NCBI GenBank assembly: GCA_030550775.1
Contig: JAUQOS010000012.1
Span: 1-36,286, forward strand
Origin: Armatimonadota bacterium
GTDB lineage: Bacteria; Armatimonadota; Fimbriimonadia; Fimbriimonadales; GBS-DC
Direction: 5' to 3'
Length of the DNA stretch: 36,286 nucleotides
Below, one piece after another: positions 2,003 to 26,581 of this stretch. Both the position numbers and the translations under genes were made by a program. Each line of letters starts with the position of its first letter. Within the stretch, counting starts at the first letter, position 1. The notes under the pieces are model-generated. The model saw only the letters and a program-made list of their open reading frames with translations, was not told the DNA's origin and made no database searches.

Positions 2003-2461
2003 TTATTCTGATCCCCTTACTACTTTGCTCTGCTGTGTGCGCAAGAACCACGCCGCCAGCGCAATCCCAACACCGTCAATTAGCACATCCATCACCGTGC
2101 CTGTGCGTCCGGGTACGAACGATTGGTGAATCTCGTCTACGATGGCGCGGAGTAGGCTCACGATGACGGCAATCCGCAGCGCAGGGGCGTGCTCGTGCCC
2201 GAAGCTAACGCGCAACGCCCAATAGCCCACCAGCGTCAGCAACAGGTAGCCCGTGCCGTGCCCCGTTTTGCGGAATAAGAAGTTCAACAGCGCCAGTTGC
2301 GTCTCTGTAAGCTGCGCAGCAAAGTGTGGCGCCACCCAAGACAAAAACGCGCGCAGCCACTCTGCTGAGTGCTCAGAGCTACCGGCGCGCGAAGAAAAGT
2401 AAAAAATCACTAACAACATTCCGATCCACAGTATAGCGGGCAGATGGCGCACGAGCCGCAT
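2003..2461 (-). CDS. VanZ-like family membrane protein
   Basis: A 152-residue integral membrane protein. It starts at the ATG at 2461, whose A is also the last base of the TAA stop of the upstream permease gene (TAATG junction, translational coupling). Longer upstream starts are possible but would lie inside the permease gene. About four hydrophobic helices are visible. The VanZ-family signature DEIHQSFVPGRTGTVMDVLI lies near residues 109-128, after a GHGTGYLLLT helix. VanZ was named for low-level teicoplanin resistance, but the biochemical role of most members is unknown. Coupling to a metal ABC permease is probably only positional. Confidence 0.8.
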   Translation of the reverse strand: MRLVRHLPAILWIGMLLVIFYFSSRAGSSEHSAEWLRAFLSWVAPHFAAQLTETQLALLNFLFRKTGHGTGYLLLTLVGYWALRVSFGHEHAPALRIAVIVSLLRAIVDEIHQSFVPGRTGTVMDVLIDGVGIALAAWFLRTQQSKVVRGSE

Positions 2462-15977: not shown

Positions 15978-17222
15978 CTATAGGGGGTCGCGCATAAGCG
16001 CAACCCCGATGCCGATTGCCGCCATCAGGCTCACCAGGGCGGAGCCGCCCGCGCTTACGAAGGGCAACGGCAAGCCCATCGTGGGCAGCAAACCCGTTGC
16101 CATGCCGATATTCATCAGCGCGCCGATGCCTATCCAGCAGCCCAAACCAAACAGGTAGAGCCTGCCTGCACGCGTGGGGGCACGCGCCCCGCTGTCAAAG
16201 CACGCCCATACTAACAGAGCGAGCATGCCCAACACTGCCAAACTGCCAACAAGCCCCGTCTCTTCGGCGATGGTGGCGAAGATGTAGTCGTTCTCGGCAG
16301 CGGGTAGGTGGCGTTTCTCGCGCCCTTCACCGATGCCCACCCCCCACAGCCCACCACTACCTACTGCTATCTTGGCACGCAGCATCTGGTAGGCTGCGTC
16401 TTGGGCATATGCCTCGGGGTTGAGCATCGCCAAAACGCGCTTGACCACATACGCGCCCGGCTGCTGCTCCAGCGGCTCGTTGCGGGCAACACTGAGCAAC
16501 ACTGGCGTAATCACCAAAGCCCCGCCAATCAGCACGCCACTGAGCACGACCAACATCACATTGCGCCAGCGCATTCCGCCCAGAAACGCTACCACAAAGC
16601 CTATCAAAAACACCAGTCCTGCCGTGTCTTTGTCGGGTTGGCGCACAATCAGCGCGATGCCCAGCAGCCACAACAAGGTGCCCAGCTTGGTGCCCAGCGT
16701 CCAGCGGGGGCGCGTCGCGCCATAGATTGCCACAAACCACAACAGCGTCGCCAGCTTGTAGAACTCGGCGGGTTGGATGGTGAACGAACCGAGCCCAGGC
16801 AGCGACACGCCAATCCAGCGGGTTGCGCCTTGAATGCGCACGGTGTTGGGCAAACGCAGCTCTAACCACAGCAAGCCCACCAGCCCCAGCAGCAGCGCAA
16901 GCCATGCAAGGCTGATCCAGAATCGCCCGCGCTTTAGAGCAGTTATGCCCATCACAACACCGCCGATGCCCAACCATAGCGACTGCATTACCACTGGGCG
17001 CAGCGCTTTCCAAAACGCGCTTGTGGAAGCAGCGGTTTCGCTGCGCAGCAGCTCGGCAATCGCCACGCTGGCTTGGAACACCAGCCCCACCAACGCCAAG
17101 GCAAACGGCAACGCGATTAGCAACGGATGCGGGCGCGCGCGAGCTGCCGATGCGGCGGGCACACGAGCGCGCGGCGGCTCCAGCACCGCTGCCGCCCCAT
17201 AACCATAACTCATCCGACGCAT
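15978..17222 (-). CDS. ftsW: Septal peptidoglycan polymerase FtsW (SEDS family)
   Basis: 414 residues with about ten transmembrane helices. SEDS signature near the C-terminus: GLLPTMGLPLPFVSAGGSAL (residues about 371-390). Another conserved element is VGSGGLWGVGIGEGREKRHLPAAENDYIFATIAEETG near 285-320, the large extracellular loop typical of FtsW and RodA. SEDS proteins are glycosyltransferases that polymerise lipid II, working with the transpeptidase FtsI encoded upstream in the operon. An N-terminal tail of about 30 residues rich in A and R precedes the first helix. The ATG at 17222 is preceded by GGAGG at 7 nt and overlaps the end of murD by 13 bp. FtsW rather than RodA is chosen from its dcw position. 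Confidence 0.93.
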   Translation of the reverse strand: MRRMSYGYGAAAVLEPPRARVPAASAARARPHPLLIALPFALALVGLVFQASVAIAELLRSETAASTSAFWKALRPVVMQSLWLGIGGVVMGITALKRGRFWISLAWLALLLGLVGLLWLELRLPNTVRIQGATRWIGVSLPGLGSFTIQPAEFYKLATLLWFVAIYGATRPRWTLGTKLGTLLWLLGIALIVRQPDKDTAGLVFLIGFVVAFLGGMRWRNVMLVVLSGVLIGGALVITPVLLSVARNEPLEQQPGAYVVKRVLAMLNPEAYAQDAAYQMLRAKIAVGSGGLWGVGIGEGREKRHLPAAENDYIFATIAEETGLVGSLAVLGMLALLVWACFDSGARAPTRAGRLYLFGLGCWIGIGALMNIGMATGLLPTMGLPLPFVSAGGSALVSLMAAIGIGVALMRDPL

Positions 17223-18568
17223 GCGAACGCCTCCCTCACCAGTTGCTTGAAGCGCTCCCCGCGCTCCGCGAAGTTGCGAAACTGGTCAAAACTGGCACAG
17301 CCTGGCGCGAGAATCACTGTCTCCCCTGCTCTCGCAAGCGCACGGGCGCGCTCAACCGCCCGTTCCAGCGTCTCGGTATACTCCCAGTCTGGATAGCCGC
17401 GCTGCTGCAACGCTTCCCCAATTGCACGTCCATCACGCCCAATCAGCAGCACATAACGGGCATAGTGCGCCAGCGATTGCGCCAGCTGCTGGATACTGTT
17501 GTTCTTGTCCACACCCCCTGCGATGACAAGACACGGCTTTGGGGTGGCTCGGAGCGACTGCTCCAGCGCATCGGCGTTGGTGCACATGGAGTTGTTGATG
17601 TAGCGCACACCTGCCCACGCGCCCACCAACTCCATCCGATGCGGCACGCCCCGAAAGGTGGCAAGCGCATCGCGCACTTGGTCTGCCCGCCCCCCTAAAA
17701 TCGCTGCCACCTGAGCCGCCGCAAGCGCGTTCTCCAAGTTATGTTTGCCCTGTAGGGCGGGCATCGGTGTTGCTGAAAGGTCTAAGGTTTTGTCAAAAAG
17801 TTGCACAATCGGTTCATCTGCCGAAAACCAGACGATTTGCGCCCTTCCCTGCCCTGCTCCCCCGTGCTCCAATAGCCAGCGAATGCCCGCATCATCACGG
17901 TTGAGCACCGCCCAATCGTCGGCAGTTTGATTGGCTAAAATCTTGCCTTTCGCTTGCGCATACGCTTCCCAGCTGCCGTGATAATCTAAGTGATCGTGAC
18001 GGATGTTCGTAATCACAGCGATGCGTGGGCGGAAGGTAAGGGTGTGCAGCAGCTGGAACGAACTCACTTCGGCGATCAGCCACTCGTGAGGCTGCGCGCG
18101 CTCCGCTGCCTCGGTGAGCGTGAGGTCGTTTTCGGTGCCAGCGATGTTGCCGCACAGGTATGCCGATAGCCCCATCGTGCGCAGCATGTGGTAAACGAGC
18201 GCGGTTGTGGTCGTCTTGCCGTTGGTGCCCGTAATCGCGACGATGGGCGCGTGGCTGATGCGATATGCCAGTTCGATCTCGCTCCAAACAGGCACGCCTG
18301 CGGTTGTAGCCTGCTCGAACACGGGATGCGTCGGCGGCACCCCAGGACTGACGATGACGATATCGTAGCCGTTCAGCCTCGCAGGGGCTTCGGTTTGGGC
18401 GTAGAGAGGAATGCCTCGTTGGGCAAGCAGTTCGGCGTGGGGCAATGCGCTCTGCGGCTGACGATCGTACGCCTCTACCGCTGCGCCGCGAGCGAGTAGC
18501 GCAACAGCTGCGGCATAGCCGCTCCGCCCTGCTCCAATCACTGCCACACGCTTGCCCGTGAAGTCCAT
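17210..18568 (-). CDS. murD: UDP-MurNAc-L-Ala:D-glutamate ligase MurD
   Basis: 452 residues. MurD adds D-Glu to UDP-MurNAc-L-Ala in the cytoplasm. A Rossmann-type N-domain (VAVIGAGRSGYAAA) precedes the P-loop GTNGKTTTT (114-122), the central-domain motif TNIRHDHLDYHGSWEAYAQAKGKI, and the C-domain substrate site YINNSMCTNADALEQSL. The start is the ATG at 18568, with AGGTGA just upstream; an in-frame TTG six codons earlier is less likely. It lies 21 bp after mraY. The strand, spacing and order match the canonical dcw cluster. Confidence 0.95.
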   Translation of the reverse strand: MDFTGKRVAVIGAGRSGYAAAVALLARGAAVEAYDRQPQSALPHAELLAQRGIPLYAQTEAPARLNGYDIVIVSPGVPPTHPVFEQATTAGVPVWSEIELAYRISHAPIVAITGTNGKTTTTALVYHMLRTMGLSAYLCGNIAGTENDLTLTEAAERAQPHEWLIAEVSSFQLLHTLTFRPRIAVITNIRHDHLDYHGSWEAYAQAKGKILANQTADDWAVLNRDDAGIRWLLEHGGAGQGRAQIVWFSADEPIVQLFDKTLDLSATPMPALQGKHNLENALAAAQVAAILGGRADQVRDALATFRGVPHRMELVGAWAGVRYINNSMCTNADALEQSLRATPKPCLVIAGGVDKNNSIQQLAQSLAHYARYVLLIGRDGRAIGEALQQRGYPDWEYTETLERAVERARALARAGETVILAPGCASFDQFRNFAERGERFKQLVREAFACVG

Positions 18569-18589
18569 AAGCTCACCTGTTTCCAAAGG

Positions 18590-19597
18590 CTATAACAACT
18601 CCATCAAGAGCAGCCCCGCTACGGCAAACAGCGCGCCCAGCAACCAAAACCGCATCACTATCGTCGGCTCTGACCAGCCCAACAACTCAAAGTGATGGTG
18701 GATGGGCGTTGCTTTGAAAATCCGCTTGCCTCCGCGCAGCTTCACCGAACTCAGCTGCACCACCACGCTCAAAATCTCAATCACGAATACGCCGCCAATC
18801 AGCGCATAACTCGCCGCAGTCAGCCATGTCGGCGAGGAAAGCATCATCCGCAGCGTCAGCAGCCCGAAACTCGCGCCCAGAAACATCGAGCCTGTGTCGC
18901 CCATGAACACCTTCGCAGGATGCACATTCCACCACAAATAGCCTACACACGCGCCCAGCAGCATCGGCGCGTACTCCGCACCTGCCATGAAACCTGCGTA
19001 GCTGCACAGCGGCAGGAACGCAATCGCCGTCAGCCCCGCCGCCAAGCCGTCCAAGCCATCCGTTAAGTTGAACGCATTCACCCAGCCGACCACCCACAAC
19101 ACCGCCAGCAGGTAGTAGCCCCAGCCGAACTCCAACGCCAGTGTACCGAAGCCCTCGCCTGTGAATACCCGTAGCGACTCGTCCATCACCGGCGGGGGCA
19201 TCGCCTGCCACAGCATATACACGCTCACCGCCGCCGCCGCCAGTTGCAACGCCAGCTTCGACTTCCACTCCAGCCCGCGCCGTCCCGTGAGACGCTGTAT
19301 CCAGTAGTCGTCCAGCAGTCCAATCGCCGCGAACCACAGCGCGCCCGCGAAAATTACTAGCGTAAGAGTCAGGTTCTCGCCCCTGTGCGCCATGCCCCAC
19401 ACCAACATGCCCGCCAGCACGCCCAGTATCATCAGGAAGCCTCCCATCGTGGGCGTGCCCTCCTTGGGGCGATGGGTTTCGGGCGCGTAGGCGTACACCG
19501 TTTGGCGTGCGTTGATTCGCGCCAGCCAGCCAATCACAGGCTTGCCCAGCAGCCAACTGGTCAGCGCCGCCGCCAGAAACGCTACAAGCGCGTTCAT
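18590..19597 (-). CDS. mraY: Phospho-MurNAc-pentapeptide transferase MraY
   Basis: 335 residues, polytopic membrane enzyme that couples UDP-MurNAc-pentapeptide to undecaprenyl phosphate (lipid I). Diagnostic motifs are KEGTPTMGG (45-53), DDY (96-98) for Mg binding, NLTDGLDGL (177-185) as the nucleophile region, and the HHHFE loop near 302. About ten helices. The start at 19597 forms an ATGA overlap with murF; an upstream frame to 19681 exists but lies within murF and lacks the family sequence. The length agrees with family norms of 320-360. Confidence 0.96.
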   Translation of the reverse strand: MNALVAFLAAALTSWLLGKPVIGWLARINARQTVYAYAPETHRPKEGTPTMGGFLMILGVLAGMLVWGMAHRGENLTLTLVIFAGALWFAAIGLLDDYWIQRLTGRRGLEWKSKLALQLAAAAVSVYMLWQAMPPPVMDESLRVFTGEGFGTLALEFGWGYYLLAVLWVVGWVNAFNLTDGLDGLAAGLTAIAFLPLCSYAGFMAGAEYAPMLLGACVGYLWWNVHPAKVFMGDTGSMFLGASFGLLTLRMMLSSPTWLTAASYALIGGVFVIEILSVVVQLSSVKLRGGKRIFKATPIHHHFELLGWSEPTIVMRFWLLGALFAVAGLLLMELL

Positions 19598-21042
19598 CGC
19601 ATCACCACTTGCTCCAGCCCCAGCGCTCGCGAGCCTTTCAGCAGCACGCAATCGCCAGGTTGCACCGTGCGCATCAGCCACTCGCCCGCTTGCTGAGGCG
19701 TTTCAAAGTGCAGCAGTCGGCTAGCAGGAAAACCGCCCTCCCTGGCAGCAGCTGCCGTCCATAGCACTTCGGTTCCGACCAAGACCAGATAGTCCAGCGG
19801 TTGCCCTGCCAGCCAACGCCCTAAGCTCCAGTGGAGGCGCATGCTGTATGCCCCCAGTTCCTTCATGTCGCCCAAGATAGCGATGCGCCGCCGCGCGGGC
19901 ACTTGCGTGAGCAGCACTTGTAACGCGGCACGCATCGAATCGGGGTTGGCATTGTAGGCATCGTTGATGAGCAGCCAGCCGCCGGGCTGTTTCTGCACCG
20001 CCATGCGCATTTCGGGCAGTTGCAGGTCGCGCAGGGCGTGAGCAGCAGCATAGGGGTCAACGCCCAACAGAGTAGCTGTCAGCAACGCGGCGGTGGCGTT
20101 AACAAGCAGGTGTTCGCCCAAGTAAGGCAACTCCAGCCAAACGCGCGCTTGGAAACTGGGCAGATTCAGCTCCACCTCACCCGCGGTGTGGTTCTCGCCC
20201 AGCTGCACGCGCACCAAGCGGGCGTCGGCGTCGGGATGTCGCCCAAAAGTGTAAACGGTATGGCAACCACAGCGGGCACGGAGCAGCTCGTAGAACTTGT
20301 CGTCGCGCGGCAAAACCGCGATGCCGTTCGGGGGCAACGCCTGCAGCAGTTCCGATTTCGCTTCGGCAATCGCCTCGCGACTGCCCAACTGCTCAATGTG
20401 CGACCAGCCGATTTGGGTGAGAATGCCCACAGTCGGCTCGGCGATTTCCGCGAGGTAGGCAATCTGCCCACGCCCACGCATTGCCATCTCTTGCACCAAA
20501 AAGCGGTGCGACTCGTCCAAGCCAAACAGCGTGAGGGGCACACCGATTTCAGTGTTAAAGTTTCCTGCGTTTTTATGCACAGCGCGCGGGTAGCCCGCCT
20601 CCAACGCCGTGGCGACCATCTCTTTGGTGGTGGTCTTCCCAGTGCTGCCGGTGATACCGATCACGGTGGCGTTGAACTGGCGTCGGTAGTGGCGTGCCAG
20701 TTGCCCTAAGGCGTGCACGGTGTTGGGCACGCGCAGCAGGGGCATCTCCTCTGCGCCCAGCGGCACATACTCCACCAGTGCTGCGACCGCTCCGCGTTCA
20801 AACACCTCTTGCAAATACTGGTGTCCGTCGGTGCGATTGCCGCGTAGTGCGACGAACAGGTCGCCCGGCTCCACAAGGCGGCTGTCGATGCTCACGCCCG
20901 TGATGGAGTGCGCTCTGCCCTGCTCCGCCGTTTCGAACAGTGGCAAGGTTGCGGCGCGTTTGGCATGGGGCTCCAGCGCAATGTTCAGCGGCTTTGCGCC
21001 TGTGGCTTCAATGACCTCCGATAAGTGCATCGCTCGTTTCAT
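19594..21042 (-). CDS. murF: UDP-MurNAc-tripeptide:D-Ala-D-Ala ligase MurF
   Basis: 482 residues. MurF adds the D-Ala-D-Ala dipeptide made by the Ddl half of the fused gene downstream. The N-domain (SIDSRLVEPGDLFVALRG near 51) binds the UDP-MurNAc moiety, GSTGKTTTK (132-140) is the P-loop, followed by NAGNFNTEIGVPLTLF, and INDAYNANPDSMRAAL lies in the C-domain. AGGAG sits 7 nt before the ATG at 21042, which overlaps the murE stop (ATGA). Another in-frame ATG lies four codons downstream. The N-terminal extension of about 25 residues before the conserved domain is a little longer than usual. Confidence 0.96.
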   Translation of the reverse strand: MKRAMHLSEVIEATGAKPLNIALEPHAKRAATLPLFETAEQGRAHSITGVSIDSRLVEPGDLFVALRGNRTDGHQYLQEVFERGAVAALVEYVPLGAEEMPLLRVPNTVHALGQLARHYRRQFNATVIGITGSTGKTTTKEMVATALEAGYPRAVHKNAGNFNTEIGVPLTLFGLDESHRFLVQEMAMRGRGQIAYLAEIAEPTVGILTQIGWSHIEQLGSREAIAEAKSELLQALPPNGIAVLPRDDKFYELLRARCGCHTVYTFGRHPDADARLVRVQLGENHTAGEVELNLPSFQARVWLELPYLGEHLLVNATAALLTATLLGVDPYAAAHALRDLQLPEMRMAVQKQPGGWLLINDAYNANPDSMRAALQVLLTQVPARRRIAILGDMKELGAYSMRLHWSLGRWLAGQPLDYLVLVGTEVLWTAAAAREGGFPASRLLHFETPQQAGEWLMRTVQPGDCVLLKGSRALGLEQVVMR

Positions 21043-22547
21043 CGCTTCGCTCCTGCCACCTCCTGCGCGACTTCAATATCGCTGAAAGGTAGCTTTTCGG
21101 TGCCAATGATCTGGTACGGTTCGTGCCCCTTGCCTGCCAGCAGCACCAGTTCGCCCGATTGTGCCGTGTGCAAGGCGTACTCAATCGCGCGTCGGCGATC
21201 TACCTCTACCAGGGCTACTTTGTAGCGCAGCGATTCGGGGACGCCTGCCAAAATCTGTTCCAAAATCCGCGTGGGGTCTTCGGTACGGGGGTTGTCGGAG
21301 GTCAAAATCACGCGGTCGGCAAGTTCCGCCGCGATTTTGCCCATTAGCGGGCGTTTCGTGGCGTCGCGGTCGCCCCCGCAGCCAAACAGCACGGTCAGGC
21401 GCGTGGGGTTGAGCATACGCCCTGCTTCCAGCACACGCTGCAGTGCGTCGGGCGTGTGGGCAAAGTCCACCACAACCTGGTAGTCGGCATCAATAGGCAC
21501 GCGCTGGAACCGCCCTGCCACCTGAGTGAGTTGCGCCAAACCACGCTGAATCGCTTCCATCGGCAGCTCCAGCGCCAATCCTGTGGCGATTGCTGCCAGC
21601 GCGTTGTAGAGGTTGTAAGGCGCAATCAGCCGCAACTCGAAGGTGGTATCTTCGTATCCAGGCGTGCGCACGGTAAAGCGCAGTCCGTCGGTGCGGAACT
21701 CTACCTCGGTGGCGCGCACCCACGCGCTTTCCGACTGCCCGTAGGTGTACACTGCCCCACGCGCTTTAGCGGCAAATCGTCTGCCCCACGCATCGTCTAC
21801 ATTGATGACCGCCTTGAACGGCTTGCCCCCCTGCTCTGCCAGTTCCGTAAACAGGCGCAACTTGGCTTGGGCGTAGGCCTCCATCGTGCCGTGATAGTCC
21901 AGATGGTCTTGGGTGAGGTTCGTGAATACGCCCACATCAAAGCGCACACCGTCCGCGCGTTTTTGATCCAGCGCGTGCGAAGAAACTTCCATTACGGCTG
22001 CTTGCGCGCCTATGTCTAAGGCGCAGCGCAGCATCGCTTGCAGTTGATATACCTCAGGTGTGGTGAACTCGCCCTCTTCAGCGATCGGGTGGCGTGTGCC
22101 ATTGGGGTATTCAATCCACGCGCCCAAAGTGCCCACAATCAGCGTCGGCTTGCCCGCAGCCGCCAAGATTTTCTGCACCATGTGGGTGGTGGTGGTTTTA
22201 CCGTTAGTGCCCGTCACGCCTGCAACGATAAGGTGGCGGCTGGGATCACCGTAGAAGCGTTGGGCGATGCGCCAGAGAGCATCGCGCGTATCGGGCACAA
22301 CATAGTACACGGCGTCGGGCACTTTCGTGAACGCTCCGTTGTGCTTACCAGCTTGTACTAACACGGCAGCGGCGCCGCGCTGCAAGGCGTCGGTAATAAA
22401 CTGATGCCCGTCGCGCTGACGCCCAACAATCGCCACGAACAGGTCGCCCGGCTGCACGCGGCGCGAGTCAACGCAGATGCCGCGAATTTCGGCATCTCCG
22501 TGTGCCCACACAATTGGCAAGCCCTGAGTGAGTTCACTCAATCGCAT
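21039..22547 (-). CDS. murE: UDP-MurNAc-L-Ala-D-Glu:meso-DAP ligase MurE
   Basis: 502 residues. P-loop GTNGKTTT (113-120), the carbamylated-lysine region YHGTMEAYAQAKLRLF near 218, and DNPRTEDP (418-425). The DNPR motif is diagnostic for meso-diaminopimelate ligases as against lysine ligases, so the third peptide residue in this organism is very probably m-DAP. The N-domain has SRRVQPGDLFVAIVG. The start at 22547 is 6 bp after ftsI, and the stop overlaps murF. Length and motifs are normal for the family. Confidence 0.96.
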   Translation of the reverse strand: MRLSELTQGLPIVWAHGDAEIRGICVDSRRVQPGDLFVAIVGRQRDGHQFITDALQRGAAAVLVQAGKHNGAFTKVPDAVYYVVPDTRDALWRIAQRFYGDPSRHLIVAGVTGTNGKTTTTHMVQKILAAAGKPTLIVGTLGAWIEYPNGTRHPIAEEGEFTTPEVYQLQAMLRCALDIGAQAAVMEVSSHALDQKRADGVRFDVGVFTNLTQDHLDYHGTMEAYAQAKLRLFTELAEQGGKPFKAVINVDDAWGRRFAAKARGAVYTYGQSESAWVRATEVEFRTDGLRFTVRTPGYEDTTFELRLIAPYNLYNALAAIATGLALELPMEAIQRGLAQLTQVAGRFQRVPIDADYQVVVDFAHTPDALQRVLEAGRMLNPTRLTVLFGCGGDRDATKRPLMGKIAAELADRVILTSDNPRTEDPTRILEQILAGVPESLRYKVALVEVDRRRAIEYALHTAQSGELVLLAGKGHEPYQIIGTEKLPFSDIEVAQEVAGAKR

Positions 22548-22553
22548 GGCTCG

Positions 22554-24422
22554 TCACCCCAACGGGCGGCTGAAGCTGCGCGGCACGATGCTTTTGTGTC
22601 GTGACGACGGAATGCGCCAGTACCACATCAAAAACTGCGCCAGCTGTCGGAACGCGGGGGCAGCCACCTCGCCGCCGTAGTAGCCGCGTTGCGGCTCATC
22701 TGCCATCACCAAAATCACGGCGCGTGGCGCGTCGGCGGGCACGATGCCCACAAATGATGCCACATACTTGCCTGGCGCATAACCCCGCCCGTTCGGTAAA
22801 GCTTTCTGCGCCGTGCCCGTTTTTCCCGCTACCAGATAGCCCTTCAGTTGGGCGGCTTTGCCTGTGCCTGCCTCCACTGCACGCACCAGCCCGCGCATCA
22901 CCAAGCGGGCATCGGCAGGCTGTACTATCTGCTGAGGTTCGGGGCGTGCAAGGGCAGGTTCCAGGGCTATCCGCGGCGCAACCCATCGCCCCTCATTTGC
23001 CAACGCACCATATGCCGCTGCCAGCGCCAATGGCGACACCAACAGCCCCTGCCCGAAGGCAAGGTTTGCTGCACGCACCTCCCTGCCCCACCGTACCTTG
23101 TCAGGTGGAGTCGTGCGTCCCACTGCCTCGTAGGCAAAGCCCGCCCGCGTTGGCTCAAATAAGTGAAACCGTTGCAGTGCGCGATACACGCCCTCCAGCC
23201 CCACGCGCTGCCCTATCTGCGCCATCGCCACATTGCATGAGTGGCACAGAGTATCTTCCAGCGTCTGCATGCCGTGCCCGCGGCCGCGCCCTTCCACCAC
23301 GCAGCGAATGCGCTTGCTTGCCACCTTGTATGCACCAGCGCAGAAAAACTGCATGCCTGCGCTCAAACGCCCCTCACTCAGCAGCGCAGCGACCACTAAC
23401 GGTTTGACGGTTGAGCCCGGCTCGTACAAAAACTCCACCGCGCGGTTGCGCAGTGGCTCCATCGCGCGTTCGCGCTCAGTGGGGCTGTTCGTGCGCGGCA
23501 CGCGCAAGCCTTCGCGCGTCGCCAGATTAAAGGTCGGGCGGTTGGCAATCGCCAAAATATCGCCCGACTGCGGCTCCAGCACCAACATAAGCGCACCCAT
23601 GGGCTGATGTTTACGCCAGAGCTGCTCCAGAGCGTCTTCAGCAGCTTGTTGGATAGCTGCGTCTAGTGTGAGGCGCACGGGTTCCCCATCGACGGGCACC
23701 ACGCGCCGCTGGACGGTTTCTGGAATCAGCACACCCCCAGGCGCCAGCTCGCCCTCTTCAATGCCGTTTTTGCCCGCTAAACGCGTATCGTAGGCGCGCT
23801 CAATGCCGCTTACAGCCCTCAGGAAGTTGCCCTCTGCCCCGCTCTCTACGGGTTGCGTTAGCCCGATGACCTGCGGGGCAAGCGTTGGCTGAAGGTAAGT
23901 GCGGATGGGCACCAACTCACGCGTGAGCACGGGCTGCTCGTCGCGCCTGTAGGGCTTGAACGCTTGGCGCAGGGCGTGGCGCAACTGGTCGTATCGTTCC
24001 AGCGGGGCGCGCTGGGCAAGGCGCAGGTAGCGTCGCCCCTCCCCGCGCGCTTGCAGGAGACGGTCCCGCCAGAACTCCTCGCTTTCGCCTAAGTGCGCAG
24101 CGAGCACGCGTGCCGCACGGGGTACATCGCGCACGCTCATCGGGTCGATAGCGATGTGGCAGCACAGGTCGCTTGTCGCTAGTGGCTTGTGATGGCGATC
24201 AAGGATCGCGCCCCGCTTTGCCAACAGTGTGCGCCTATGCCGGCGTCGGCGCTCGCCCTCCGCACGCAGTTGATCGTGCTGAATCACCTGCAGCTGGACC
24301 AAGCGTGCAGCCAGCGCAGCTCCGCCGAATGCCAACGCGGCGCCGAGCCACTGCGCCCGACGCAGCTCGTCCGTTTTCAAGCGCACAGTTGTGTGGCGCA
24401 CGGTTGCACGCCGCGTTGCCAT
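22554..24422 (-). CDS. ftsI: Septal peptidoglycan transpeptidase FtsI (PBP3, class B)
   Basis: 622 residues. A basic cytoplasmic tail and one transmembrane helix (about 24-44) are followed by the class B dimerisation domain (about 50-230) and the transpeptidase domain. The serine nucleophile is in STVK (337-340), with SCN (395-397) and KTG (534-536), the three penicillin-binding motifs. It cross-links septal glycan made by FtsW. Four cysteines (361, 374, 393, 396) flank the active site, and one of them is within the SxN motif, which is somewhat unusual for an exported domain. GGAGG lies 7 nt before the ATG. It is 12 bp after ftsL. Confidence 0.95.
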   Translation of the reverse strand: MATRRATVRHTTVRLKTDELRRAQWLGAALAFGGAALAARLVQLQVIQHDQLRAEGERRRRHRRTLLAKRGAILDRHHKPLATSDLCCHIAIDPMSVRDVPRAARVLAAHLGESEEFWRDRLLQARGEGRRYLRLAQRAPLERYDQLRHALRQAFKPYRRDEQPVLTRELVPIRTYLQPTLAPQVIGLTQPVESGAEGNFLRAVSGIERAYDTRLAGKNGIEEGELAPGGVLIPETVQRRVVPVDGEPVRLTLDAAIQQAAEDALEQLWRKHQPMGALMLVLEPQSGDILAIANRPTFNLATREGLRVPRTNSPTERERAMEPLRNRAVEFLYEPGSTVKPLVVAALLSEGRLSAGMQFFCAGAYKVASKRIRCVVEGRGRGHGMQTLEDTLCHSCNVAMAQIGQRVGLEGVYRALQRFHLFEPTRAGFAYEAVGRTTPPDKVRWGREVRAANLAFGQGLLVSPLALAAAYGALANEGRWVAPRIALEPALARPEPQQIVQPADARLVMRGLVRAVEAGTGKAAQLKGYLVAGKTGTAQKALPNGRGYAPGKYVASFVGIVPADAPRAVILVMADEPQRGYYGGEVAAPAFRQLAQFLMWYWRIPSSRHKSIVPRSFSRPLG

Positions 24423-24434
24423 TTGGATCCCTCC

Positions 24435-24845
24435 CTATTCGCGCAAGTGCAGCGCGAGTGGCTGGGTAGGTAGCGTGGGCGCCTCGAAGCCGACAATTGT
24501 CAACTCGGGCTGGGTATCTACACGCACCATCCCTGCCTGCTCCGCCCAGCGGCGCACCGCCACCTCATCGGTGTACACTGCCAGTTGCCCTCTGAGTTTC
24601 TCTATATTGAGGCGTACGCGGTCTATTTCGCGGCGCAAGCTCTCGCGGCGGGCAGTTTCCCAGTTGAGCATCGCTGTTGCGCTAAGGTGAGTAGCAAGCA
24701 CCGCACCTATAATAACGAGGGGCAACAGCGGGCGTTGTGGGCGTGGCTTCGGGCGCGCTGAGCGAGGCCTCGCTCGAGGCACGGTGTTCGGTTTTGGCAC
24801 ACTTGCCGCCGTTTGCACTGCCTTCGGTTTCGCTGTGGCTGGCAT
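24435..24845 (-). CDS. ftsL: FtsL-like cell division protein
   Basis: 136 residues. Topology is a basic, proline- and alanine-rich cytoplasmic tail (1-52), one transmembrane helix (LLPLVIIGAVLATHLSATAML, about 54-74), then a leucine-zipper-like coiled coil (RRESLRREIDRVRLNIEKLRGQL) and a short C-terminal region. Sequence conservation of FtsL is low, so the call rests on topology, size and its fixed position between rsmH and ftsI. FtsL binds FtsQ and activates FtsW-FtsI. The ATG at 24845 has GGAGG 6 nt upstream and lies 13 bp after rsmH; a longer frame to 24902 would overlap rsmH. Confidence 0.85.
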   Translation of the reverse strand: MPATAKPKAVQTAASVPKPNTVPRARPRSARPKPRPQRPLLPLVIIGAVLATHLSATAMLNWETARRESLRREIDRVRLNIEKLRGQLAVYTDEVAVRRWAEQAGMVRVDTQPELTIVGFEAPTLPTQPLALHLRE

Positions 24846-24858
24846 CTGCTTCCTCCCG

Positions 24859-25794
24859 TTATGCCACGCGCCGTGCAGCGCGCAGTTTAGCGCTGCGGGC
24901 ACGCGGATTCTCTTGCACCTCCGCTTCGCTCGGCTCCAACGGCTTGGGGGTCAAAATCTCCAGCACAGGCGTAGAAACACTGCTCGGCTCTCCCCCACCA
25001 ACACCTGCCAACGCACGCGCGCGCTGGCTCAGGTTGCGAAACGCGTGCTTTACGGCGCGGTCTTCCAGCGAGTGGTATGCCAACACCGCAATCACGCCCC
25101 CCACCTTCAGGCAGCCTGCCATTGCCTCCAGCGCGGGTTGCAGCTCATCCAGTTCGCGATTGACCGCGATCCGTATCGCTTGGAAGGTGCGCGTGGCGGG
25201 GTGAATGCGCTTCTCTTGATACTTTTTCGGCACCGCTTCCAAAACGGCAGCCGCAAGGTCGCCCGTGGTGTTCATCCGCCCTTGATCGCGACGGCGGATA
25301 ATCGCGCGGGCAATCGGCTTCGCCCAACGCTCGTTGCCATACTCGCGCAAAATGCGCACCAGCTCGTTCATCTTTATCCGCTGCAGCAGGTGGTAGGCAG
25401 TGGTGGGCTGTTCCCTATCCATGCGCATGTCCAACGGTGCATCATAGCGAAATGCCATCCCACGTTCCGGGTCATCCAACTGCGCGCTGCTGACACCCAT
25501 ATCCACCAAAATCGCATCCACCGCTTGAATTTGCAATCCGCGCAGTATTTCAGGTAAATTGCGATAGTCCGCGTGGACATAGTAGACGATGCACGGCACA
25601 TCCGCGAGGTTTTGGCGCGCAAGGTCGAGCATGGAGGCGTCGCGGTCAATCGCCACAAGGGTGCCCGTTGTGCCGATTCGCTCCGCTAGGGCACGCGCGT
25701 GCCCGCCCGTGCCCACCGTGGCGTCCACCACCACGCCGCCCACAGGTGGGTTCAGCAACTCCATCACCTCGCGCACCATCACCGGCTTGTGCAT
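24859..25794 (-). CDS. rsmH: 16S rRNA (cytosine-1402 N4)-methyltransferase RsmH
   Basis: 311 residues (also called MraW). It methylates C1402 of 16S rRNA in the decoding centre. The opening MHKPVMVREVMELL and the SAM-binding loop DATVGTGGH (24-32) are diagnostic. Other conserved parts are DAILVDMGVSSAQLDDPERGMAF near 110 and LAYHSLEDRAVKHAF near 255. The ATG at 25794 begins one base after the mraZ stop; an in-frame TTG four codons earlier is less likely. Second gene of the dcw operon, its usual place. Confidence 0.96.
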   Translation of the reverse strand: MHKPVMVREVMELLNPPVGGVVVDATVGTGGHARALAERIGTTGTLVAIDRDASMLDLARQNLADVPCIVYYVHADYRNLPEILRGLQIQAVDAILVDMGVSSAQLDDPERGMAFRYDAPLDMRMDREQPTTAYHLLQRIKMNELVRILREYGNERWAKPIARAIIRRRDQGRMNTTGDLAAAVLEAVPKKYQEKRIHPATRTFQAIRIAVNRELDELQPALEAMAGCLKVGGVIAVLAYHSLEDRAVKHAFRNLSQRARALAGVGGGEPSSVSTPVLEILTPKPLEPSEAEVQENPRARSAKLRAARRVA

Positions 25795-25795
25795 C

Positions 25796-26239
25796 TTAGA
25801 TTCCAATCTCCGTTGCGTATTGCATCAACTCGGCGCTGTTGCTCAACGCTTCATCCATCAACCGCTCAAAGCGTGTTTTCGCCCAGATTTCCACGCGGTT
25901 CGCACAGCCCATAATCACCACTTCCGAGTTCGGCTCAATCCCCGCCCACTCGCGCAAGTCCTGCGGAATAGCCACACGCCCTTGGCTGTCGGGCGTCACT
26001 TCCGATGCCGCGCTGTACAAAAAGCGTTGCAACGCCATCTTCTTACGGTCAAAGGTCGCGCCGTTCTCGAACTTCTCGCCCAGTTGCTGCCATCGCTCGG
26101 TGGTAAACACAAACACGCACCCATCAAAGCCGCGCGTCATGATGAACCGCTCGCCCAGGCTTGCCCGAAAGCGCAGCGGAATAATCACGCGCCCCTTGTC
26201 GTCTACGGCATTTGTGCTACCACCTTGAAACAGCGCCAT
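25796..26239 (-). CDS. mraZ: Transcriptional regulator MraZ
   Basis: 147 residues with two AbrB-like swapped-hairpin modules. Their signatures are NAVDDKGRVIIPLRFRASLG (about 10-29) and TPDSQGRVAIPQDLREWAG (about 81-99), each with the DxKGR/DxQGR turn. In E. coli and Mycoplasma MraZ assembles into a ring and binds short direct repeats in the promoter of its own dcw operon. Four direct repeats with an 11-bp period occupy the leader just upstream of this gene (26252-26289), so autoregulation is likely. It is the first gene of the operon, behind a near-consensus promoter. Confidence 0.96.
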   Translation of the reverse strand: MALFQGGSTNAVDDKGRVIIPLRFRASLGERFIMTRGFDGCVFVFTTERWQQLGEKFENGATFDRKKMALQRFLYSAASEVTPDSQGRVAIPQDLREWAGIEPNSEVVIMGCANRVEIWAKTRFERLMDEALSNSAELMQYATEIGI

Positions 26240-26251
26240 CGGTGCAAATCA

Positions 26252-26289
26252 CCACCAAGTCTCCACTGGGCTACCACTGAGTCTCCACT
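26252..26289 (-). promoter_or_regulatory. Putative MraZ operator: four direct repeats, 11-bp period
   Basis: On the minus strand the units are AGTGGAGACTC, AGTGGTAGCCC, AGTGGAGACTT and GGTGGTGATTT. The GTGG cores begin every 11 bp exactly (plus-strand CCACY at 26252, 26263, 26274 and 26285). The array lies between the -10 box and the mraZ ATG, where binding would block transcription. Known MraZ boxes are also short G-rich direct repeats at about one helical turn. Confidence 0.7.
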
Positions 26290-26296
26290 GGGCTAT

Positions 26297-26325
26297 ATTT
26301 TAGCATATGAGATAGCGTTTGTCAA
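26297..26325 (-). promoter_or_regulatory. Promoter of the dcw operon
   Basis: On the minus strand TTGACA (26325-26320), a 17-bp spacer and TAAAAT (26302-26297) give a near-perfect sigma-70 type promoter. The predicted start is near 26290, about 50 nt before the mraZ ATG. This is the only consensus -35/-10 pair I found in the window that faces a gene. Confidence 0.85.
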
Positions 26326-26581
26326 GGGCTTTGCCCCCACTTAGCCCAAGAATTGGGGCAATTGGGGGCGAATTTGCCCATATGTGGGGGTTGACGATAC
26401 AGGCTGGTGGTGTCTGGGTGGTGGCGCGTGGTGGTGTTCGCTCATATAAGAGGCTCCGCGACCGTGCGACAGCTTGCCCTCAGCGCAGGTAGTCTAGCCT
26501 AACTTGCGCTGACACGCGACTCGTCGCCTTCGGCTTGGAATGACAAAGTTCACTGGGGCAAAAATGGCTTGTTTTGCGCTC
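26326..26581. other. Intergenic region between lptF/G and the dcw promoter
   Basis: No gene was seen. It holds a GTGG-rich stretch on the plus strand (26406-26434), a hairpin at 26481-26511 (CAGCGCA/TGCGCTG plus three inner pairs), which may end lptF/G transcription although no T-run follows, and a degraded dispersed repeat at 26518-26547. Confidence 0.6.
26518..26547. repeat. Dispersed repeat, single forward arm
   Basis: GACTCGTCGCCTTCGGCTTG followed by GAATGACAAA matches the core seen at 1893, 3365, 3751 and 7811 with a few substitutions. No clear inverse arm was found. Confidence 0.65.

Follow-up and report, generated by a model that had tools for sequence, protein, structure and literature searches.

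The mraZ gene at the head of the dcw cluster in a Fimbriimonadales bacterium (Armatimonadota) is preceded by four GTGG cores, repeated at a constant step of 11 bp directly past the promoter, and this four-box array is almost certainly an operator of MraZ itself, as predicted from sequence comparison. The 11-bp period is fixed in most of the source family, unlike the 10-bp period of the other phyla that we sampled. The best overall explanation, which we hold with considerable confidence, is a predicted binding of MraZ to the array that would repress its own operon; we infer the binding, the repression and the mechanism alike. MraZ is a widespread bacterial regulator whose operator has so far been described with a 10-bp step. 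The features discussed below lie in the window, the whole 36,286-nt stretch of DNA that was analysed:

26320..26325, minus strand: -35 hexamer TTGACA, invariant in 12 related leaders
26297..26302, minus strand: -10 hexamer TAAAAT, an extended -10 through a TG that lies one base upstream; TAAAAT or TATAAT in 12 of 12 related leaders
26285..26288, minus strand: GTGG core of predicted MraZ box 1, 8 nt past the -10
26274..26277, minus strand: GTGG core of predicted MraZ box 2
26263..26266, minus strand: GTGG core of predicted MraZ box 3
26252..26255, minus strand: GTGG core of predicted MraZ box 4, with its flanks GGTGGTGAT
25796..26239, minus strand: mraZ, MraZ transcriptional regulator of 147 aa, first dcw gene (Pfam MraZ)
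24859..25806, minus strand: rsmH (mraW), 16S rRNA methyltransferase, second gene (Pfam Methyltransf_5, 342.5 bits)
15978..24902, minus strand: remainder of the dcw cluster within the range tested (Pfam matches)
24435-24902, minus strand: 155-aa ORF that follows rsmH and precedes the transpeptidase gene, at the FtsL position

On the minus strand the leader is ordered TTGACA-17-TAAAAT-8-GTGG-N7-GTGG-N7-GTGG-N7-GTGG-12-ATG, with the cores starting at 26288, 26277, 26266 and 26255; read 5′ to 3′, the -10 and its 8 nt are followed by the boxes AGTGGAGACTC AGTGGTAGCCC AGTGGAGACTT GGTGGTGATTT and then by the mraZ ATG at 26239. The first-pass annotation had described four GTGG at exactly 11 bp behind a near-consensus promoter, and both parts of this description stand. 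TTGACA, 17 nt and TAAAAT with its extended -10 match the consensus at 11 of 12 positions (1 such promoter found against 0.1 expected), and the coordinates confirm the 11-bp step. When the 150-nt mraZ leader was put through 20,000 dinucleotide-preserving shuffles and any constant period from 8 to 14 was accepted, four shuffles held at least three GTGG at one fixed period and none held four. Within the leader, no 4-mer but GTGG, at 11, forms four copies with a constant period, and elsewhere in the 36-kb window fourfold 4-mer arrays of this type occur only at 16857 and 9821, both within long ORFs. Boxes 1 and 3 are near-identical across 11 bp, as might be expected if the array had arisen by chance or by a recent tandem duplication without function, but the shuffles (0 of 20,000) and the retention of the array in diverged genera, where spacers have changed and cores have not, leave that origin practically negligible. 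Upstream of the -35, positions 26326-26390 form a conserved stretch with TTGGGCNAAGTGGGGGC and repeated AATTGCCCC units, inside which an additional GTGG precedes box 1 by 52 bp, or about five helical turns; MraZ might make a further contact here, or an activator might bind.

As the first-pass annotation expected of an operator, the repeats are retained upstream of mraZ in close relatives. In a sample of 14 deduplicated mraZ leaders from the source family, promoter and 11-11-11 array are kept in 12, in which the GTGG cores are identical at 48 of 48 places, the spacers between them show a mean pairwise identity of 72%, and the pooled box reads RGTGGWRRYYN. In one of the two remaining leaders, from one genus (L020), boxes 1, 2 and 4 are present and box 3 is degenerate, and in the other, from another genus of the family (L051), no boxes were found before mraZ. 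The -10 stands 8 nt from box 1 in 12 of 12 leaders and the distance from box 1 to the start codon takes values of 41, 49, 55, 64 or 72 nt, which argues that the array is locked to the promoter and not to translation. This bears directly on an action at the RNA level, where the transcribed GTGG would exert translational control as a two-layer G-quadruplex or an extended ribosome-binding site. The array does lie in the presumed 5′ UTR, and box 4 with its flanks (GGTGGTGAT) resembles an extended Shine-Dalgarno sequence; nevertheless, the promoter distance is fixed (8 nt, 12 of 12) and the start-codon distance is not (41-72 nt), one GG per 11 nt would give a quadruplex long loops, and in bacteria whose MraZ binding is established the homologous arrays serve as operators in the DNA, so that we regard an RNA element as very improbable. 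Box 4 as a Shine-Dalgarno sequence was ruled out on its own account, its position varying among related leaders.

The array occurs once per genome. The window belongs to a 2.4-Mb draft genome whose closest named relatives are metagenome assemblies of Fimbriimonadales; GTGG-N7-GTGG-N7-GTGG is found there in the mraZ leader (two overlapping matches) and in one other place, and a search of eight family genomes with the box consensus, allowing at most 2 mismatches, returned nothing beyond the mraZ array above control level. The array might serve another regulator, or be a vestige that MraZ no longer reads, as every experimentally shown MraZ site that we found has a step of 10 bp, unlike the window, and as the array is missing from leader L051. 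Against such a reading, which we consider very improbable, the 48 cores are strictly conserved in a set whose MraZ proteins share as little as about 64% identity, the array accompanies mraZ and was not seen elsewhere in the genome above control level, and the MraZ of Mycoplasma gallisepticum binds an 11-bp-spaced site. DnaA boxes are a further source of similar patterns, since TGTGGATAA units at 11-bp steps likewise yield GTGG repeats, and GTGGATAACCTGTGGATAAC-type arrays were indeed found in several relatives (genomes G007, G004, G016, G115 and G170). However, the boxes of the window match only 4-6 of the 9 positions of a DnaA box each, by which the array was rejected as a DnaA box cluster of TTATNCACA units, and G007, G004 and G016 each have an mraZ array apart from the DnaA-type one; we give DnaA next to no weight.

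Armatimonadota, Chloroflexota and Bacillota all have members with GTGG arrays ahead of mraZ, and what distinguishes these arrays is their spacing. We counted how far apart GTGG pairs lie within the 200 nt upstream of mraZ in samples of these three phyla and in E. coli, leaving out a second draw of Bacillota that mostly duplicated the first; shuffled leaders give an expectation of about 0.1-0.6 pairs per distance in each group. The source family has 37 pairs at 11 bp and 0 at 10 bp, and the other Armatimonadota 59 and 29, respectively. At 11 and 10 bp the counts are 0 and 49 in Chloroflexota, 3 and 72 in the Bacillota sample, 2 and 91 in Paenibacillaceae, and 0 and 2 in E. coli, which brings Chloroflexota and Bacillota combined to 212 pairs at 10 bp versus 5 at 11 bp. 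The same comparison overturns one part of the first-pass annotation, where the GTGG core was seen as different from known boxes: the E. coli K-12 array is GTGGgaaattGTGGggcaaaGTGGg, so that TGGGN boxes contain GTGG, and the boxes of Paenibacillaceae (Bacillota) and Chloroflexota carry it too.

Within Armatimonadota, pure 11-bp arrays are found in the source family, in family f8, in one genus of family f17 and in leader L212, and that f17 genus has the longest array seen, in which seven (G/A)TGG boxes follow one another in 11-bp steps (L117, L118, L179). Other members of f17 and f26 carry mixed arrays such as 10-11 or 10-11-10. A three-state spacing label placed on the MraZ tree needs nine changes, on a tree with many unresolved forks; together with the mixed and pure arrays, this makes the 11-bp step a lineage trait within a phylum whose spacing has moved repeatedly. 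In 46 leaders from other families of the same order, mraZ is kept and the array is almost absent, thus MraZ does not need the array everywhere.

Some of these relatives have other elements of note. Leaders of families f3 and f5 without GTGG arrays (L005, L015, L055-L057, L064 and others) have in common, in the last 150 nt or so ahead of mraZ, GGGCGGGGTGCTC and after it a hairpin with a covarying stem (a two-sided change somewhere in 6 of 12 predicted pairs) and a loop that is often GCANGGATGC; we take this hairpin to be similar to the CsrA-type ANGGA one. No Rfam family matched this leader hairpin; it is possibly a leader RNA that replaces the MraZ operator. Relatives within f17 (L345:1420-1610, L346 and L348) have a second array, made up of six GTGG boxes in steps of 11-10-11-10-11. 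It comes after a gene with a helix-hairpin-helix domain and a TTGACA motif and is followed by a GC-rich terminator-like hairpin, and more GTGG repeats at about 10 bp lie on the opposite strand about 100 bp off. As no protein gene is evident between the second array and the hairpin, the array may control a short RNA. Near a non-dcw gene of genome G361 (L344, about 2200-2300, minus strand) there are seven perfect tandem copies of GTGGAGACCCA, a unit almost identical to the box unit of the window.

The protein that would read the array is an MraZ encoded in a standard dcw cluster. The window MraZ scores 99.9 bits against PF02381 (cut-off 23) with two half-domains, and its AlphaFold model (pLDDT 92.7) matches 1n0e, 9qlg, 9r4j and 9sz7 in Foldseek with E-values of 1e-12 to 1e-8 and TM-scores of 0.71-0.85; these are MraZ structures of M. 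pneumoniae and M. genitalium, including the promoter-DNA complexes 9r4j and 9sz7. Invariant in our MraZ alignment (A3) are D-x-K-x-R in the first half (D13, K15, R17) and D-x-Q-x-R in the second (D84, Q86, R88), which we take to be the DNA-binding face. As judged from gene order and Pfam content, 15978-26239 on the minus strand is a standard dcw cluster: mraZ comes first and rsmH next, and 15978..24902 holds the 155-aa ORF (24435-24902, no Pfam match), a transpeptidase in the FtsI position, three Mur ligases in the MurE, MurF and MurD positions, MraY and FtsW. Upstream of the cluster lies a gene for an LptF/LptG-type permease (Pfam).

One feature of the protein may vary along with the spacing. 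The distance from the second motif, D-x-Q-x-R, to E-I-W amounts to 31 residues in Bacillota, in E. coli, in most Chloroflexota and in the f17 members with mixed spacing; the source family and the pure-11 f17 genus have 33 and f8 has 38, the extra residues sitting in a C-terminal loop of the second half-domain between helix 93-99 and strand 106-111. All 24 of the 24 pure-11 operators go with an MraZ of at least 33 residues at this distance (two or more extra), and among the other operators 67 of 77 have no loop insertion and 10 have one, where large Chloroflexota values may be measurement artefacts. The insertion also occurs with pure 10-bp arrays in two Armatimonadota (L094, L203) and with four mixed ones. 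The association counts about three changes on the tree, a case in which an independent-pairs test cannot reach significance, hence a link between the loop insertion and purely 11-bp operators, with about three independent origins, is only suggestive. That the MraZ ring was re-geared to the 11-bp step in some Armatimonadota, with insertions of at least 2 residues and pure-11 operators co-evolving several times independently, is conceivable but rather doubtful, and the insertion as the cause of the 11-bp step was set aside in view of the few origins and of the L094 and L203 counterexamples.

As for how the array would work, the MraZ ring would present a series of DNA-binding half-domains to successive boxes along the DNA. 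The array spans approximately +1 to +38 of the transcript, directly past the -10, so that MraZ, once bound, should hinder the opening of the promoter or the escape from it and thereby repress its own operon; the array is positioned as in E. coli and Burkholderia cenocepacia, which makes repression by blocking the promoter the simplest reading. Repression rather than activation would be carried over by analogy from E. coli and M. genitalium. The proposal of the first-pass annotation, an MraZ operator with altered spacing, is in this way well borne out at the level of prediction by the strict 11 bp in relatives, the fixed promoter distance, the uniqueness in the genome and the match to arrays of E. 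coli, Bacillota and Chloroflexota. With a helical turn of about 10.5 bp, consecutive boxes would drift around the DNA one way at a 10-bp step and the other way at an 11-bp step. A strict 11-bp lineage beside relatives that have 10-bp, 11-bp and mixed arrays makes it directly testable how a ring engages boxes laid out in a line.

Our literature search found no work on MraZ operators of Armatimonadota, and no open paper on the structures of 9sz7, a cryo-EM entry released in 2026 that has MraZ on a four-box promoter. Among the described systems, E. coli MraZ is a proven repressor of its own operon, acting through repeats that it binds ahead of the first gene (Eraso 2014, as cited in PMC8475190 and PMC7761207), whereas in M. 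gallisepticum overexpression of MraZ was reported with raised FtsZ (PMC8475190). The E. coli Pmra likewise has GTGG(G) direct repeats just past the -10 and before mraZ, at 7 nt compared with 8 nt in the window, but it has three boxes at 10 bp and the window four at 11 bp. The Mycoplasma site (AAAGTGKN3)3 and the 9sz7 promoter, which has four boxes, likewise carry direct repeats with a GTG core at the dcw promoter, and they differ by a 10-bp period and an A-rich flank from the RGTGGWRRYYN box of the window family. The dcw operator of B. cenocepacia has four repeats downstream of the -10 that overlap the transcription start, and its MraZ binds the four-repeat fragment in gel shift (PMC7761207), but 7-nt repeats and 3-nt spacers give 10 bp. 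An 11-bp period with a GTG core is found in the HsdC site of M. gallisepticum, (GTGTTAN5)2, although this belongs to the controller protein of a restriction system and has two repeats only. M. gallisepticum MraZ binds this site in vitro with comparable strength, and in vivo no MraZ effect was seen at it (PMC5282649). The in vitro binding shows that the MraZ fold can accommodate an 11-bp step, and the different ring fit suggested in the first-pass annotation, though it may hold, would not be strictly required. Measured against the experimentally described sites, the window has the GTG(G)-core direct repeats between the mraZ promoter and mraZ but departs from the 10-bp period (11 bp here and in 12 of 14 family leaders), and is therefore counted as a variant of the MraZ operator; as an 11-bp site is accepted in vitro, the 10-bp period may not be truly defining. 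The TGGGN of E. coli and the AAAGTG of Mycoplasma can then be understood as views of one common GTG(G) core.
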